From a virus, in the IMG/VR virus record IMGVR_UViG_3300042992_002743, positions 1-28,007 of that record: a DNA stretch of 28,007 nucleotides, one strand, 5' to 3'. Position numbers and translations under genes: made by a program. Numbering within the stretch: position 1 is the first letter of the stretch; the number at the start of each line of letters is the position of its first letter. Under the pieces are notes generated by a model. The model did not search any database, had not been told where the DNA came from, and saw only the letters and a program-made list of their open reading frames with translations. Positions 4,003 through 28,007 of the stretch are shown piece after piece.

Positions 4003-4917
4003 TTATTTTAATAGAAAAACTTTATTTTCATCCATTAAATCTTTTAGCTTTATCAATATAGAAGCTACAATTTGTCTAACTCTTTCTCTTGTTATTCCTA
4101 ATTTTTTCCCAATATGTCTTAACGAATAATATTCTTTTTTACAATTGATTCCAAATTTCATGCAAATAATAAATCTTTGCCTTTTATTGCATCGCTTTAG
4201 CAAAGATTCCACACAATGATTTATGTGTTCCTTTTCGCAAAAATTACTCAAAGGATCTTCTATTACAGGATTAAGTTGTTCTGTCAATTGAATGCTTCTA
4301 AGCATTATGATAATCATTTGTAGATTTTTAGGATAAGTTCCAAAATCATTAATGTTTTCAATTTCTAATTCTTTTTCAATATTTTTCACATCATTAAAAG
4401 CAAGAGTTTGAAAAATTACAGTTGATATTTTTTGCAATTTTGAATAAACATTTGTCGGAACTTTAACAAAATATCTATTGTGAGATATGTATTTATAAAT
4501 TCTTTTATAAATATGAAAAAGTACATAATAACTAAATTTAACATTCTTGCTTGCATCATAACCATTTATTGCCTCATAAATACCCAAAACACCTTCTTGA
4601 ATGCAATCAGGCATTAAATCAACAGGGATATTTATTTTTTTTCCCATCCAATAAATCAATTTATAACAAGAAAAAACAAGTTTATCACAAGCCTTTATAT
4701 CGCCATTTTTGGCACTTTTAACAAGATTCATTTGCTCTTGTGTTGTTAATTTTTTTTTAAAATTTTCTTGTTCTATTTTGTCGAATGTGAAGTCACGATA
4801 AAATTTAATACCATAATTTTTTTTTAAACTAAATTCAAAAAGTCTGTCTAATTTAGTTATTTTAAATTTTTGCCAATTTTTAAACGACTTGGTATTTCCC
4901 AATTTAACAGAACTCAT
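4003..4917 (-). CDS. phage-encoded sigma-70-family RNA polymerase sigma factor
   Basis: A 304-residue sigma factor that would direct host RNA polymerase to phage promoters. Region 2 is at about residues 75-148, with 'CIQEGVLGIYEAINGYD' and 'KFSYYVLFHIYKRI', the core-binding and -10-recognition helices. A region-3-like 'VKVPTNVYSKLQKI' follows at 151-164. Region 4, with the helix-turn-helix 'SLRHIGKKLGITRERVRQI', is near the C-terminus. This full domain set is closer to group 2/3 bacterial sigma factors than to the much shorter T4 gp55. Region 1.1 is absent. AAGGAG six bases upstream fixes the start. It is the last gene of the minus block after the UvsX terminator, so it likely has its own promoter just upstream of 4917, where TTGATG can be seen without a convincing -10. 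Its target promoters are unknown; the TATAAATA octamer at 3531 is one candidate. Confidence 0.92.
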   Translation of the reverse strand: MSSVKLGNTKSFKNWQKFKITKLDRLFEFSLKKNYGIKFYRDFTFDKIEQENFKKKLTTQEQMNLVKSAKNGDIKACDKLVFSCYKLIYWMGKKINIPVDLMPDCIQEGVLGIYEAINGYDASKNVKFSYYVLFHIYKRIYKYISHNRYFVKVPTNVYSKLQKISTVIFQTLAFNDVKNIEKELEIENINDFGTYPKNLQMIIIMLRSIQLTEQLNPVIEDPLSNFCEKEHINHCVESLLKRCNKRQRFIICMKFGINCKKEYYSLRHIGKKLGITRERVRQIVASILIKLKDLMDENKVFLLK

Positions 4918-4974: not shown

Positions 4975-5013
4975 AAAAAAAAAGGAATTACCTAAATCAA
5001 AGGTAATTCCCTT
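4975..5013 (-). terminator. rho-independent terminator after uvsX
   Basis: On the minus strand a 9-bp perfect stem (5002-5010 with 4984-4992) with a 9-nt loop is followed by a run of nine T (4975-4983). It begins about 20 bases after the UvsX stop codon and separates UvsX from the sigma factor gene. Confidence 0.88.
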
Positions 5014-5031
5014 TTAAAGTTAAATTTAAAA

Positions 5032-6316: not shown

Positions 6317-7330
6317 TTAAATACCTTCTAATTCTTTCAAAAAGTCATCATCAGCAAGAGATGCAGAATCATCCGTTTTGGAAACTACCTTTGCAGTTTT
6401 CTTGACAGATAAAATTTCTTCATCAATAGTATCTGAACCAGAAATTACATTTGAAGAACTTAAGTTAGATCTAGAAGAAGATCCCGATGAATTACGAAAT
6501 TCATCTAAAGAATCATCTTGTTGGCCTTCTACTATCATTCCGCAATGAACTCTCAAGGCATGCTTAATATCATCGCCAGATTTGATAATACGAAGAGACT
6601 GAAGGTCTTGTAAACTTGTTAGCCATTTTTCAAGCTCTTCTGAGGTGCCTGAAGAAGAAACTTCTTCAAACTTTGAAAAGTCATAGTTTGGATATTCTCT
6701 ATTGCCACTCTTAACAACTTTTTTAACAAGTCTAAAATCACGACCAGTTGTTGGATGTGTAATATCCCCTAATTCCTTTTCTCCAGCAGCCTCATCACCA
6801 AGAATTGCTCTCAAAATCTTAGCATGAACTTGTTTGCCACATGAATAAATTTTTGGCCCTACATTTGTTCCTACTATAGACTTATTTTTAGGATCTACTT
6901 CCGATCTAACGATAACATTGTAATAATATCGTTCAACTGGCTTTAACTCCCTAGCACTGTTACGCATATCTTCTTGATCTTTGCCAGACAGTCCTTCAGA
7001 TTTTTGCCATAAATCACTATAGTACTTACAAATAATGCAATCTCCACGCCATTGTGGACCCCTATCAGTATCGGTAAGAGTTTTAGGACAATGGAATATT
7101 CTTTTCTGATTCGTAGTTGGATTATTTAAAGTGTGAATTCTTGTCGCACAATACAACTTTTGGCCTTTTCTCTTAGGCAAAAAACGCATCAAAACAAATC
7201 CATCACGGTCAGGAAGTCGTACATATTTTGCAAAGTACTCTTCGTTTTGACCCGTGTTGCTTTCTGAATTTACTCGTTTGGATTCTTTTTTTAACTCGTT
7301 AAGATCGAGTGGTTCGTAATCGATACCCAT
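6317..7330 (-). CDS. gp32-like single-stranded DNA-binding protein
   Basis: A 337-residue SSB of the T4 gp32 type, which coats single-stranded DNA during replication and recruits partner proteins. The core shows 'GFVLMRFLP' (44-52), then a zinc-site pattern H66 ... C81 ... C98xxC101, similar to the His-Cys-Cys-Cys zinc site of gp32, and a central aromatic stretch 'ERYYYNVIV'. A long serine-rich linker (about 275-300) leads to an acidic tail ending 'DDDFLKELEGI', the usual protein-docking tip of SSBs. I start at the ATG 7328-7330, preceded by AGG(CAGG) at suitable spacing; the longer frame to 7375 reads through leader hairpins. Neighbours are UvsX downstream and a promoter plus hairpin array upstream. 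Confidence 0.88.
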   Translation of the reverse strand: MGIDYEPLDLNELKKESKRVNSESNTGQNEEYFAKYVRLPDRDGFVLMRFLPKRKGQKLYCATRIHTLNNPTTNQKRIFHCPKTLTDTDRGPQWRGDCIICKYYSDLWQKSEGLSGKDQEDMRNSARELKPVERYYYNVIVRSEVDPKNKSIVGTNVGPKIYSCGKQVHAKILRAILGDEAAGEKELGDITHPTTGRDFRLVKKVVKSGNREYPNYDFSKFEEVSSSGTSEELEKWLTSLQDLQSLRIIKSGDDIKHALRVHCGMIVEGQQDDSLDEFRNSSGSSSRSNLSSSNVISGSDTIDEEILSVKKTAKVVSKTDDSASLADDDFLKELEGI

Positions 7331-7358
7331 GATAGCACCTGCCTTTAAATGATGGTTC

Positions 7359-7458
7359 GAGTAATGAATAATCACTACTCAATTAGTTAATGGTTCGAGC
7401 AATAAAACATTTATTGCCCAGTTAGTCAATGATTCGAGAAACAAACGATATGCTTCTC
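7359..7458 (-). promoter_or_regulatory. SSB mRNA leader: three tandem hairpins with conserved linkers
   Basis: Three repeats of 38-39 bases. On the minus strand each has a linker (GACTAACT, GACTAACT, AACTAATT), a hairpin, then CGAA. The hairpins (7436-7458, 7397-7419, 7359-7380) have 8, 9 and 9 base pairs with loops of 7, 5 and 4; their stem sequences differ, but pairing is kept, including G-U pairs. This pattern of preserved structure with preserved linkers argues for an RNA element, most simply a translational operator for autoregulation by SSB, as gp32 does in T4 with a different structure. Confidence 0.75.
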
Positions 7459-7467
7459 AGTTAGTCA

Positions 7468-7496
7468 TTTATAATCGTATCTATCATGTTGTGCAA
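7468..7496 (-). promoter_or_regulatory. sigma-70-like promoter of the ssb gene
   Basis: On the minus strand TTGCAC (7491-7496) and TATAAA (7468-7473) are separated by exactly 17 bases. Transcription would start near 7460, just at the first leader hairpin, giving a leader of roughly 130 bases before the SSB start codon. Confidence 0.65.
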
Positions 7497-7512
7497 GATT
7501 AATTTTATAAAT

Positions 7513-7944
7513 TTATTTATTTTCGTAATCGATTACTATTTGTGCATCAGGATCTTGAAATTTTTCCTGTGAATCGATGACACTTTTGTGCATGGCAGAT
7601 AATTTATCCTGCAAGCTCATATTGCCTTCAGATTCCAAATTCTCATTAATTTGTTTTCTTATGTCTTGCTCTTGATTGTATTGTTCTTCAAGAGCTTTTA
7701 AAATCTCTTGATTTTTCAATAATTGTTCTTTTATTTTTTCTGTTTTTTTTGCTTCTTGATCCAATTGCAACTCTCTATTGTTAACTATGGGTGTTTTTTT
7801 AGGACTAAGTGATTTTTCCAAAAGGTTTTGACGAACAATTTCCCTTCGTTCTTTTCTTATAGCTTCCCTTCTAAGCAAAACCTTTGTATGTGATTTTTTT
7901 TCTCGTTCTTTTCTTTTCTTTGCAATTTTTTCATTTTTTTTCAT
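7513..7944 (-). CDS. highly charged coiled-coil protein (143 aa)
   Basis: A 143-residue protein with no hydrophobic core to speak of. The first 45 residues are extremely rich in Lys/Arg and would bind nucleic acid or a negatively charged partner. Residues 55-105 have Glu/Lys/Gln/Leu periodicity typical of a coiled coil. The last 40 residues are acidic and end 'IVIDYENK'. The start has AGGAG six bases upstream; the preceding gene stops two bases before this ribosome-binding unit, so the two are translated in tandem. It lies just upstream of the SSB promoter region. No family recognised; a scaffold or DNA-organising role is a guess from composition alone. Confidence 0.75.
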   Translation of the reverse strand: MKKNEKIAKKRKEREKKSHTKVLLRREAIRKERREIVRQNLLEKSLSPKKTPIVNNRELQLDQEAKKTEKIKEQLLKNQEILKALEEQYNQEQDIRKQINENLESEGNMSLQDKLSAMHKSVIDSQEKFQDPDAQIVIDYENK

Positions 7945-7946
7945 AA

Positions 7947-8699
7947 CTATCTCCTAATGTTTGGCATGTTTTCTTGTGATGCGTTTCCCCAAAAAAGCTT
8001 TCCACCTTCTCTATCTTTTTGTGTCTCTGAAAAATTAACTTCATTGTCACCAATGAGGCCAACTGGGGCTTGAATAAAATATTTGTCGCTAATTTTTATT
8101 TCCTTAGACATATCATCTATAATTGTATAAATCTCACCTTGAATAGAGCCAGATTTAGCATAAACTGGGTATTTTTTATCAACTGTTAGTTTATATCCTT
8201 TTGTCTTTACTTCATGTAGCATTGGCAATTCTGGGGAAAAAACAACTGTTGTGATTGGCTTTTTTGACCTTACCACAGTTTGCTTTTGAATTGCCAATTG
8301 CTCATGAGGATAAATTTCTCTTTTCTCTATTTGTTCATGAGGATAAAGTTCTATTTTCTCCACTTGTTCATGAGGATAAGTCGAATTTCCTACGCATGCT
8401 ACAGACAAATCTTGAACCGAAAAACCCACAGAGTGATCAAATGTGAACTTTTTGTTTTTTATCACAACGCCACCATCAGATTCTCTAAAGCTAATTGGTT
8501 TTTTGCTAAGTTCAAATACTTCTACACTAGCGACAAATATATCTCTTCGAGCAAGTTGCCCCATTACAACGGATGCAAGCTTTTCCAAAGGTACATCCTC
8601 GAATGGATCTCCAACCTTTTTTTTGATTGTTTTAACTTCATCTTTATTGTAATTCCCATCAACTTTTTCGTGATAAGAATAAATTACTTCGTAGCCCAT
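7947..8699 (-). CDS. hypothetical protein with triple YPHEQ repeat (250 aa)
   Basis: A 250-residue soluble protein with three parts. Residues 1-95 look like a compact alpha/beta domain. Residues about 109-141 hold three tandem 11-residue repeats beginning 'YPHEQ' (followed by VEKIEL, IEKREI, LAIQKQ). Residues about 145-250 look beta-rich ('KGYKLTVDKKYPVYAKSGSIQ', 'EIYTIIDDMSKEIKISDKYF') and resemble a small SH3-like barrel, though I cannot verify this. GAGG six bases upstream of the ATG supports the start. It is followed at once by the coiled-coil gene. No named family; the repeat region may be a flexible linker or a multivalent docking site between two folded domains. Confidence 0.75.
   Translation of the reverse strand: MGYEVIYSYHEKVDGNYNKDEVKTIKKKVGDPFEDVPLEKLASVVMGQLARRDIFVASVEVFELSKKPISFRESDGGVVIKNKKFTFDHSVGFSVQDLSVACVGNSTYPHEQVEKIELYPHEQIEKREIYPHEQLAIQKQTVVRSKKPITTVVFSPELPMLHEVKTKGYKLTVDKKYPVYAKSGSIQGEIYTIIDDMSKEIKISDKYFIQAPVGLIGDNEVNFSETQKDREGGKLFWGNASQENMPNIRR
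8298..8378. repeat. three 33-bp tandem repeats inside a gene
   Basis: A 15-base core TTG(C/T)TCATGAGGATA recurs at 8298, 8331 and 8364, exactly 33 bases apart, in the frame that encodes the YPHEQ repeats of the 250-residue protein. The intervening bases have diverged mainly in ways that keep the protein pattern. Confidence 0.9.
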
Positions 8700-17848: not shown

Positions 17849-18538
17849 ATGCTACACTCAAAAAGTAAAAAACAATTAGTAGTTTCCAGATATGGAGAAT
17901 CCATAGATTGGATTAAAAAAATTGAACATTTATTTCAAGATATAGTTATTTATGAAAAAAACAATTCGTCTAATTCGTATCATAAATACAAAACCATAGA
18001 ATTAAAAAATGTTGGTAGAGAATCACACACTTATTTACATCATATTATTGCCAATTATGAAGAGATATCTACATATGACAATATACTTTTCTGTCAGGCA
18101 AATCCATTTGATCACTGTAGTGAATTTTTAGACAAATTAAAGATATCGGATAATTATACGAATGATCCATTTTACTTTAAAAAAGTTGGCTCGCATGAAA
18201 TTACTTTTTATTATGAGCCAATCGAAAAGGTCCACCCCATAGGATTACCAGTATTCAATTTTTATTATCATCTTTTTTTTGATTCATATATGAAGAATTT
18301 GGAACAAACAAGAAATTCTTTAATGGTAATTCCAACAAATAATATAAAATTTAGATCAAAAGTTTTTTATGAATATCTTATAAAATATTTGAGCAATCGA
18401 AAAAATCCATTAGAAGGATACATCATAGAAAGACTTTGGGTTCCTATATTTGATGGAAAAACCAAAGATTGGATTAGTCATTATTTTTCTGGTAGAGATA
18501 AATTCTTAGGCATGTGGAATAATCAAAAAATCGAATGA
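17849..18538 (+). CDS. DUF3431-like protein
   Basis: A 229-residue protein whose N-terminal half follows the DUF3431 pattern: 'LVVSRYGESIDWI' near residues 9-22, a strand 'DIVIYEKN', then 'LKNVGRESHTYLHHI' and 'NILFCQANPFDH'. These resemble glycosyltransferase-like proteins in which an early R-Y-x-E strand and a G-R-E-x-x-T-Y-L helix recur. The catalytic role of the family is not established. The ATG at 17849 lies one base past the preceding stop and has no clear ribosome site, which suggests coupling; a longer reading from 17792 overlaps the preceding gene in another frame. The gene ends two bases before the convergent TAGT-like gene, so sugar-related proteins flank this spot on both strands. 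Confidence 0.6.
   Translation: MLHSKSKKQLVVSRYGESIDWIKKIEHLFQDIVIYEKNNSSNSYHKYKTIELKNVGRESHTYLHHIIANYEEISTYDNILFCQANPFDHCSEFLDKLKISDNYTNDPFYFKKVGSHEITFYYEPIEKVHPIGLPVFNFYYHLFFDSYMKNLEQTRNSLMVIPTNNIKFRSKVFYEYLIKYLSNRKNPLEGYIIERLWVPIFDGKTKDWISHYFSGRDKFLGMWNNQKIE

Positions 18539-25611: not shown

Positions 25612-28007
<2,396 letters not shown>

Follow-up and report, generated by a model that had tools for sequence, protein, structure and literature searches.

Three tandem covarying hairpins in the RNA leader of a phage gp32-type SSB gene, a candidate autogenous operator with a multiplied module

Introduction

The closest described counterpart of the leader analysed here is the gene 32 operator of T4, T2 and RB69. 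According to the passages on gene 32 in two accounts, T4 gp32, when in excess over its ssDNA sites, attaches to a folded 5'-terminal element of its message and spreads cooperatively from there over UUAAA/UAAA repeats onto the ribosome-binding site (PMC535899; PMC3014915). The corresponding passage of PMC535899 leaves open whether relatives apparently without the pseudoknot repress their own translation. T4 gene 32 long ago raised the question of how a non-specific ssDNA binder picks out the message that encodes it. A second point of comparison is the T4-type promoter-plus-stem-loop cassette, reportedly described by Arbiol in 2010 as mobile and as standing before many genes.

Here we analyse a virus record of 28,007 bases (the window) in which the leader of a gp32-family SSB gene bears three tandem hairpins. 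This leader resembles the T4/T2/RB69 operator in the protein family encoded downstream, in a folded RNA element near the leader 5' end and in the less structured RNA that then leads into the ribosome-binding site; short leader repeats are also common to both, as UUAAA/UAAA in T4 and as the linkers between the hairpins here, with ACUUUU in relatives. It differs in that the single pseudoknot there is replaced by three tandem covarying hairpins here, with no loop-linker pairing beyond that of shuffled sequences, and in that the leader holds one UUAAA (7348-7344) outside the stems where T4 has a UUAAA/UAAA tract, ACUAA being repeated in the linkers instead. Because tests for a loop-linker pseudoknot and for a UUAAA tract found neither, we do not class the array with the T4 operator family; an earlier note on this DNA had proposed a solution different from that of T4, and set beside published descriptions of the T4 operator the array is indeed different. 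With the T4-type cassettes it shares an intergenic promoter followed by a hairpin, but here one probable promoter would serve three hairpins, and whereas the cassettes are said to precede many genes, the 19 phage records searched showed strong copies of the window unit before SSB only.

Results

Genomic setting and hairpin units

Replication-gene matches in the window comprise a UvsX-like recombinase, a gp32-like SSB, a DnaB-like helicase and a DNA polymerase, with further matches to a DNA helicase (PHROG 16), a dCMP deaminase and a sigma factor. The SSB gene (6317-7330, minus strand; 337 aa, start codon at 7330) is of the gp32 type: it matches PF08804 at E 2.8e-10, above the curated cut-off, and PHROG 224 at E 3.6e-18, and a profile of five SSB relatives matched the gp32 structures PDB 2a1k/2atq at E 2e-5; NCBIfam gave no match at E 0.01. 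The earlier note had placed the hairpin array in the SSB mRNA leader, and this placement, ahead of a gp32-family gene, is supported. At the far end of the window, 26141-28006 encodes a long collagen-like protein with GTTGET-type triplets that is still open at the window end.

On the minus strand, between a probable promoter (7496-7468) and the SSB start codon, there are three units of 37-38 bases each, with unit starts spaced 39 nt apart. U1 (7429-7466, minus strand), delineated by sequence, fold and covariation, consists of the linker GACUAACU, an 8-bp stem at 7458-7451/7443-7436 (sense-RNA arms GAGAAGCA and, past the loop, UGUUUCUC), the loop UAUCGUU and the linker GAAUCAU. U2 (7390-7427, minus strand) repeats the linker GACUAACU, followed by a stem at 7419-7412/7404-7397 with 2 further bp possible (arms GGGCAAUA and, past the loop, UAUUGCUC), the loop aauguuu and the linker GAACCAU, and U3 (7352-7388, minus strand) has the linker AACUAAUU, a stem at 7380-7373/7366-7359 with 1 further bp possible (arms GAGUAGUG and, past the loop, CAUUACUC), the loop auuauu and again GAACCAU. 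A Shine-Dalgarno region, AAGGCAGGU (7337-7345, minus strand), separates U3 from the SSB start codon.

The stems vary by compensating and G-U changes, all non-Watson-Crick positions being G-U in the sense RNA, and the linkers between them are near-constant, with the consensus RACUAAYU 5' of the stem and GAAYCAU 3' of it. Within the window units, 24/24 stem cells pair and both partners differ in 3/8 pairs; covariation scores 0.75, which 7/500 shuffles attained. The earlier note's three covarying hairpins with shared linkers are borne out: its stem coordinates are exact, and its interval 7359-7458 runs between the outer edges of the last and first stems.

Two other readings of the stretch were rejected. 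Stops occur in all three sense frames, which rules out a coding sequence, and a search for a GC-rich hairpin with an immediate U run, as in a transcription attenuator or intrinsic terminator, found no terminator-like site in 6500-8500. Between the UvsX-like and sigma-factor genes, a 15-bp AT-rich hairpin followed by a T run (4975-5015) is likely an intrinsic terminator, unlike the SSB array.

Homologous units and covariation

SSB relatives were gathered from uncultured viral contigs; no relative was found in GTDB genomes. The 197 loci yielded 193 SSB matches by tblastn, 190 of them with a located start (L195 was too short). The 62 distinct leaders were reduced to 58 by removal of the very remote L194 and L196-L198 and to 40 by an 85% similarity reduction; as controls we took 113 leaders from the same 40 loci, each before a script-called ORF whose upstream gap was 80 nt or longer.

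Four records with a 100% identical SSB (L001, L002, L003 and L049) carry the same three-unit leader. More distant phages, L026 (58.5% SSB identity to the window) and L100/L101 (59.6% for L101), carry two tandem units in the same frame as those of the window. Across the seven units, three from the window and four from phages that the reader behind the earlier note had not seen, 96.4% of 55 stem cells pair and covariation scores 0.679, values attained by 0/500 shuffles in either case; 5/8 pairs are changed on both sides (12/500 shuffles) and 12 further pair types occur (10/500). Sliding the partner by 1-3 columns lowers covariation to at most 0.202. One row, L100b, is a base out of register at one stem end, which costs a pair and adds none. 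The four L026/L101 units alone give a weaker signal, with covariation of 0.375 (30/500 shuffles) and 96.8% of 31 cells pairing with little variation. Pairing and covariation, which the earlier note had proposed to check on related phages, hold across the seven units taken together.

Three unit-model searches covered 54, 51 and 50 sources. The best three matches of model R2, built from the window units only, in 442 kb were L026 unit 2 (E 0.029), L026 unit 1 (0.54) and a hairpin in the L007 SSB leader (1.1), E-values that are modest, and L101 was absent from the R2 matches. The best three of model R3, built from the L026/L101 units, in 452 kb were U1 (E 3.4e-4), U2 (0.028) and U3 (0.16), followed at E 0.19, nearly equal to U3, by a coding-region stretch at 17945-17978 of the window. 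Each group's model has the other group as its best matches, and we regard the window and L026/L101 units as homologous.

A further search of 19 phage records, four of them from the same species as the window and of up to 80 kb, placed 18/18 matches of at least 38 bits in arrays before SSB; five weak matches lay elsewhere at E 0.012-0.86 (G006, G008, G009 at 0.012, G017 twice). Weak matches outside SSB leaders were also returned by the 54-source search (L018, L154, window 17945-17978 and L184), by R2 (L004 twice and L022) and by R3 (window 17945-17978, L122 and L018), and all such matches are taken as chance. The L007-type leader hairpin, which scored E 0.091 in the 54-source search, was not returned by the 19-record search, whose first look can therefore miss weak copies. 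Rfam gave no match at gathering score in the window or in 10 related loci, and none at E up to 1 for 7300-7560.

RNA folding

The fold belongs to the sense RNA and not to the antisense. The sense RNA from 7474 to 7328 (minus strand) folds at -38.7 kcal/mol (z -4.41) and 0/200 shuffles fold as well, whereas the antisense RNA of the array (z -0.59) is ordinary, as is the plus strand under DNA folding (z -1.24). A coarse scan of 1396 segments of 125 nt gave a z of only -2.66 for the one at 7361, several other places being stronger; because fold energy alone would not single out the array, our case for it is built on covariation and homology. Elsewhere on the minus strand, a very strong nested hairpin at 995-1057 (z -7.2 for 930-1090) directly precedes an ORF at 984-517 that by eye is HNH endonuclease-like, and a helicase-like ORF adjoins.

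In RNAs starting at 7463-7468 and ending at 7250 or 7200, U2 and U3 are predicted to form with a probability of 0.99-1.00 and U1 with 0.23-0.68; U1 is uncertain in these longer RNAs because it can pair with the SSB coding sequence. All three units form (at least 0.98) when the RNA ends at 7328 or 7300, and also when it starts at 7495 or 7520. Pairing between a loop and the following linker, sought in the seven units as a pseudoknot, reached 3-4 bp at best, within the range of shuffles (P 0.67-0.99).

SSB leaders as a class are not better folded than others, with a mean z of -1.50 (n=40) against -1.48 for the 113 same-locus leaders, a comparison that rules out the notion that SSB leaders are unusually structured in general; a slight excess of folding appears after the 9 remotest leaders are dropped (n=31, z -2.02, p 0.049). 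The advantage of sense over antisense fold energy is likewise slight across the 40 SSB leaders (p 0.042), and is clear in the three hairpin-unit leaders (sense/antisense -37.3/-24.0, -31.5/-25.9 and -22.4/-12.6).

Leader variants among relatives

Other relatives have a simpler leader. L004, L005/L007 and L022 show a single hairpin after an ACGAA stretch, followed by ACU-rich single strand, and LR756511, the nearest named phage record (36% SSB identity), also has a single hairpin at that place. A different form of multiplication is seen in L090 and L092, which are 93.3% identical in DNA over 7 kb and 96.0% in SSB: a hairpin is followed, up to the Shine-Dalgarno region, by tandem AACTTTTGTGT repeats, with five copies of AACUUUUGUGU in L090 (L090:2881-3000) versus two in L092 (L092:2906-3000). 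Of the 12 stretches of viral contigs that contain the exact 18-mer AACTTTTGTGTAACTTTT, only L207 (the L092 contig) and L217 (the L090 contig) encode SSB; the DNA examined of the other 10 showed none. The top-ranked 5-mer, ACTTT, lies within 60 nt of the start in 24/40 SSB leaders versus 11/113 other leaders, and the window leader is without this ACUUU motif, which is frequent among relatives.

Tandem direct repeats (z>4) were found in 6/40 SSB leaders versus 2/113 others from the same loci, with a Fisher p of 0.004 that overstates the enrichment because the six represent about three origins and are not independent: the window, L026 and L100 types share one unit family, L090 and L092 another, and L122 stands by itself. 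Outside these counts, L197 and L198 carry tandem AACTGTAGC-like repeats within 130 nt before a remote gp32-like gene, and in L103 repeats of the UGUGAUGU type (L103:4931-5040 and L103:5436-5545) precede two other ORFs downstream of SSB.

Promoter and read-through RNA

The probable SSB promoter, read from its sequence as TTGCAC-17-TATAAA (7468-7496, minus strand), overlaps a conserved T/A-rich element, TATAAATTAATCTTG (7509-7494, minus strand), which overlaps and precedes the first hexamer. This element occurs exactly, and once each, in 8/9 relatives' records; calculated from the contig ranges, every copy falls within the SSB leader, some 90-155 nt upstream of the start. In the ninth record, which belongs to the same species as the window, the element is longer by one A. 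A consensus promoter scan did not list TTGCAC-17-TATAAA, which is a poor consensus match. The sigma-70-like promoter claimed in the earlier note is therefore backed by conservation of the upstream element and not by the consensus. Transcription would probably start at the array edge, near 7465 (minus strand), and the TATAAATTAATCTTG element, judged by its conservation, could be an SSB-specific promoter or operator.

Other SSB leaders (for example L097, L125 and L135) carry CTAAAGT and GCCGATA with promoter-like spacing, a pair that presumably recalls the sigma-28 consensus. This pattern, devised after inspection of these same leaders, is present in 9/40 SSB leaders versus 0/113 controls over 110 nt, and in 14/40 when 130 nt are read (controls 110 nt). 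The window's phage itself encodes a sigma factor (4006-4917, minus strand).

Within the promoter spacer, CAUGAUAG (7481-7488, minus strand) is an 8-bp complement of CUAUCAUG (7335-7328), which holds the start codon. The duplex is perfect (-13.2 kcal/mol) and encloses the hairpin array; by chance it arises in 1/2000 shuffles of a narrow segment and at p 0.032 in a wider one. The predicted probability that the AUG is unpaired is 0.00 for an RNA starting at 7495 (0.00-0.13 for starts 7495-7600) and 0.70 for one starting at 7465, and the Shine-Dalgarno region is about half open either way (0.64 and 0.52, respectively) and hidden in neither. It is possible, on this folding model, that the CAUGAUAG pairing would conceal the start codon in read-through RNA alone.

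Among relatives, a first test with a fixed segment over the 40 leaders, in which the window's segment was misplaced, gave p 0.125. With hand-placed -10 anchors, which were set after pairing had been seen in some leaders, 29/40 leaders could be used and p was 0.0012; the signal came from clade A (9 leaders; 0/5000 permutations, 4/9 leaders at p<0.05) and was absent in clade B (13 leaders, p 0.39), with p 0.09 for class C (7 leaders), so that we reject concealment of the start region by a promoter segment as a general feature of the relatives. In L043, L047, L050 and L057 of clade A the promoter spacer could base-pair with the Shine-Dalgarno region, an arrangement that would suit the silencing of read-through transcripts, and L025 and L029 differ by one compensating pair in this spacer/Shine-Dalgarno complementarity. 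The window's predicted pairing would be like that of T4 genes e, soc, 49 and I-TevI, whose start region is hidden in read-through RNA according to the part of PMC3014915 concerned with them, in that a segment upstream of the expected own-transcript start can pair with the start codon, with the predicted consequence that free translation would be limited to the SSB gene's own transcript; unlike theirs, the pairing modelled in the window would enclose a hairpin array and concern an SSB gene.

Discussion

On balance we think it fairly probable that the array is, by analogy with T4 gene 32, an autogenous translational operator with a multiplied folded module. We favour this reading because the protein family, the place of the array, its sense-strand structure, its constant linkers and the enrichment of repeats in SSB leaders all fit it. 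In such an operator the array would be the 5' untranslated leader of the SSB mRNA, to which free SSB would bind once ssDNA is saturated. The hairpins would be the specific seeds, and the single-stranded linkers of 14-16 nt would offer short binding lattices, from which a cooperative SSB chain could extend over the Shine-Dalgarno region and start codon and so stop translation. The module would have been multiplied to three copies here, relatives having one, two, or a hairpin with a repeated linear motif. Against this reading count the competition of U1 with coding-sequence pairing in longer RNAs, the ordinary folding of SSB leaders as a class, the missing loop-linker pseudoknot and ACUUU motif, the few origins behind the repeat-bearing leaders, the modest R2 E-values, and the coding-region match that R3 scores almost as high as U3.

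One alternative is that the hairpins act as a 5'-terminal RNA stabiliser, blocking 5'-end-dependent nucleases and giving a long-lived SSB message with no specific ligand. The first stem does lie within about 10 nt of the 5' end expected from the promoter, but a stabiliser needs neither three copies nor linkers that stay constant from unit to unit and phage to phage, as they do here beside varying stems. Expansion of a linear motif, as in relatives, would not stabilise a 5' end, and the 5'-most hairpin, U1, is the one least certain to form. We consider this explanation unlikely, though still worth weighing.

The units could instead bind a protein other than SSB, be it a translational regulator of the host or the phage, or a factor for antitermination or processing. 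Constant linkers and covarying stems look protein-bound whatever the binder, and, according to the relevant part of PMC4347634, antiterminators of the group to which NasR belongs recognise a motif of two tandem stem-loops. Against this stand the confinement of strong copies to positions before SSB (19 records) and the lack of a terminator-like site in 6500-8500. A search of 9 records for RegA (PF01818) gave no match, but the controls were silent too and the result proves little. Taken together, these points leave another binder with a small probability.

Recombination of short repeats is common, and copy number differs among the relatives, as it would if one leader hairpin had undergone neutral tandem duplication, with function only in the start-proximal hairpin or in none. 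Yet the window units have diverged and keep their pairing throughout (24/24 cells), and the L026/L101 units also keep it (96.8% of 31 cells), though with little variation, which makes neutral duplication improbable in our judgement. A DNA-level element, such as a replication origin or single-strand initiation hairpins merely sited before SSB, is disfavoured and extremely unlikely in spite of tandem palindromic repeats beside a replication gene, since the window units depart from Watson-Crick pairing by G-U pairs of the sense strand, folding of the antisense RNA and of the plus-strand DNA is ordinary, GC skew makes no turn at the array, and repeats are enriched in the SSB leaders of other phages.

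Within the autogenous-operator reading, SSB as the ligand, repression as its effect and any influence of copy number are inferences; that the units let the phage count free SSB in steps, as the earlier note had suggested, is speculation, and each unit might add no more than affinity. It is conceivable, though we hold it doubtful, that module number (one, two or three hairpins, or two versus five linear repeats) tunes SSB genes as a repeat-number rheostat, in which modules gained or lost in evolution would set the free-SSB level or the steepness at which translation stops. The idea of such self-regulation is known from T4, but among the open-access papers listed for tandem hairpins or repeated operators before phage SSB genes (subscription journals being mostly outside that scope) we recognised the T4/RB69 work and no account of the repeated-hairpin form. 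The natural series of leaders, with one, two or three hairpins and with two versus five linear repeats in phages that are 93% identical, bears on the seed sites, lattice length and module number by which an SSB of this family may pick its own message.
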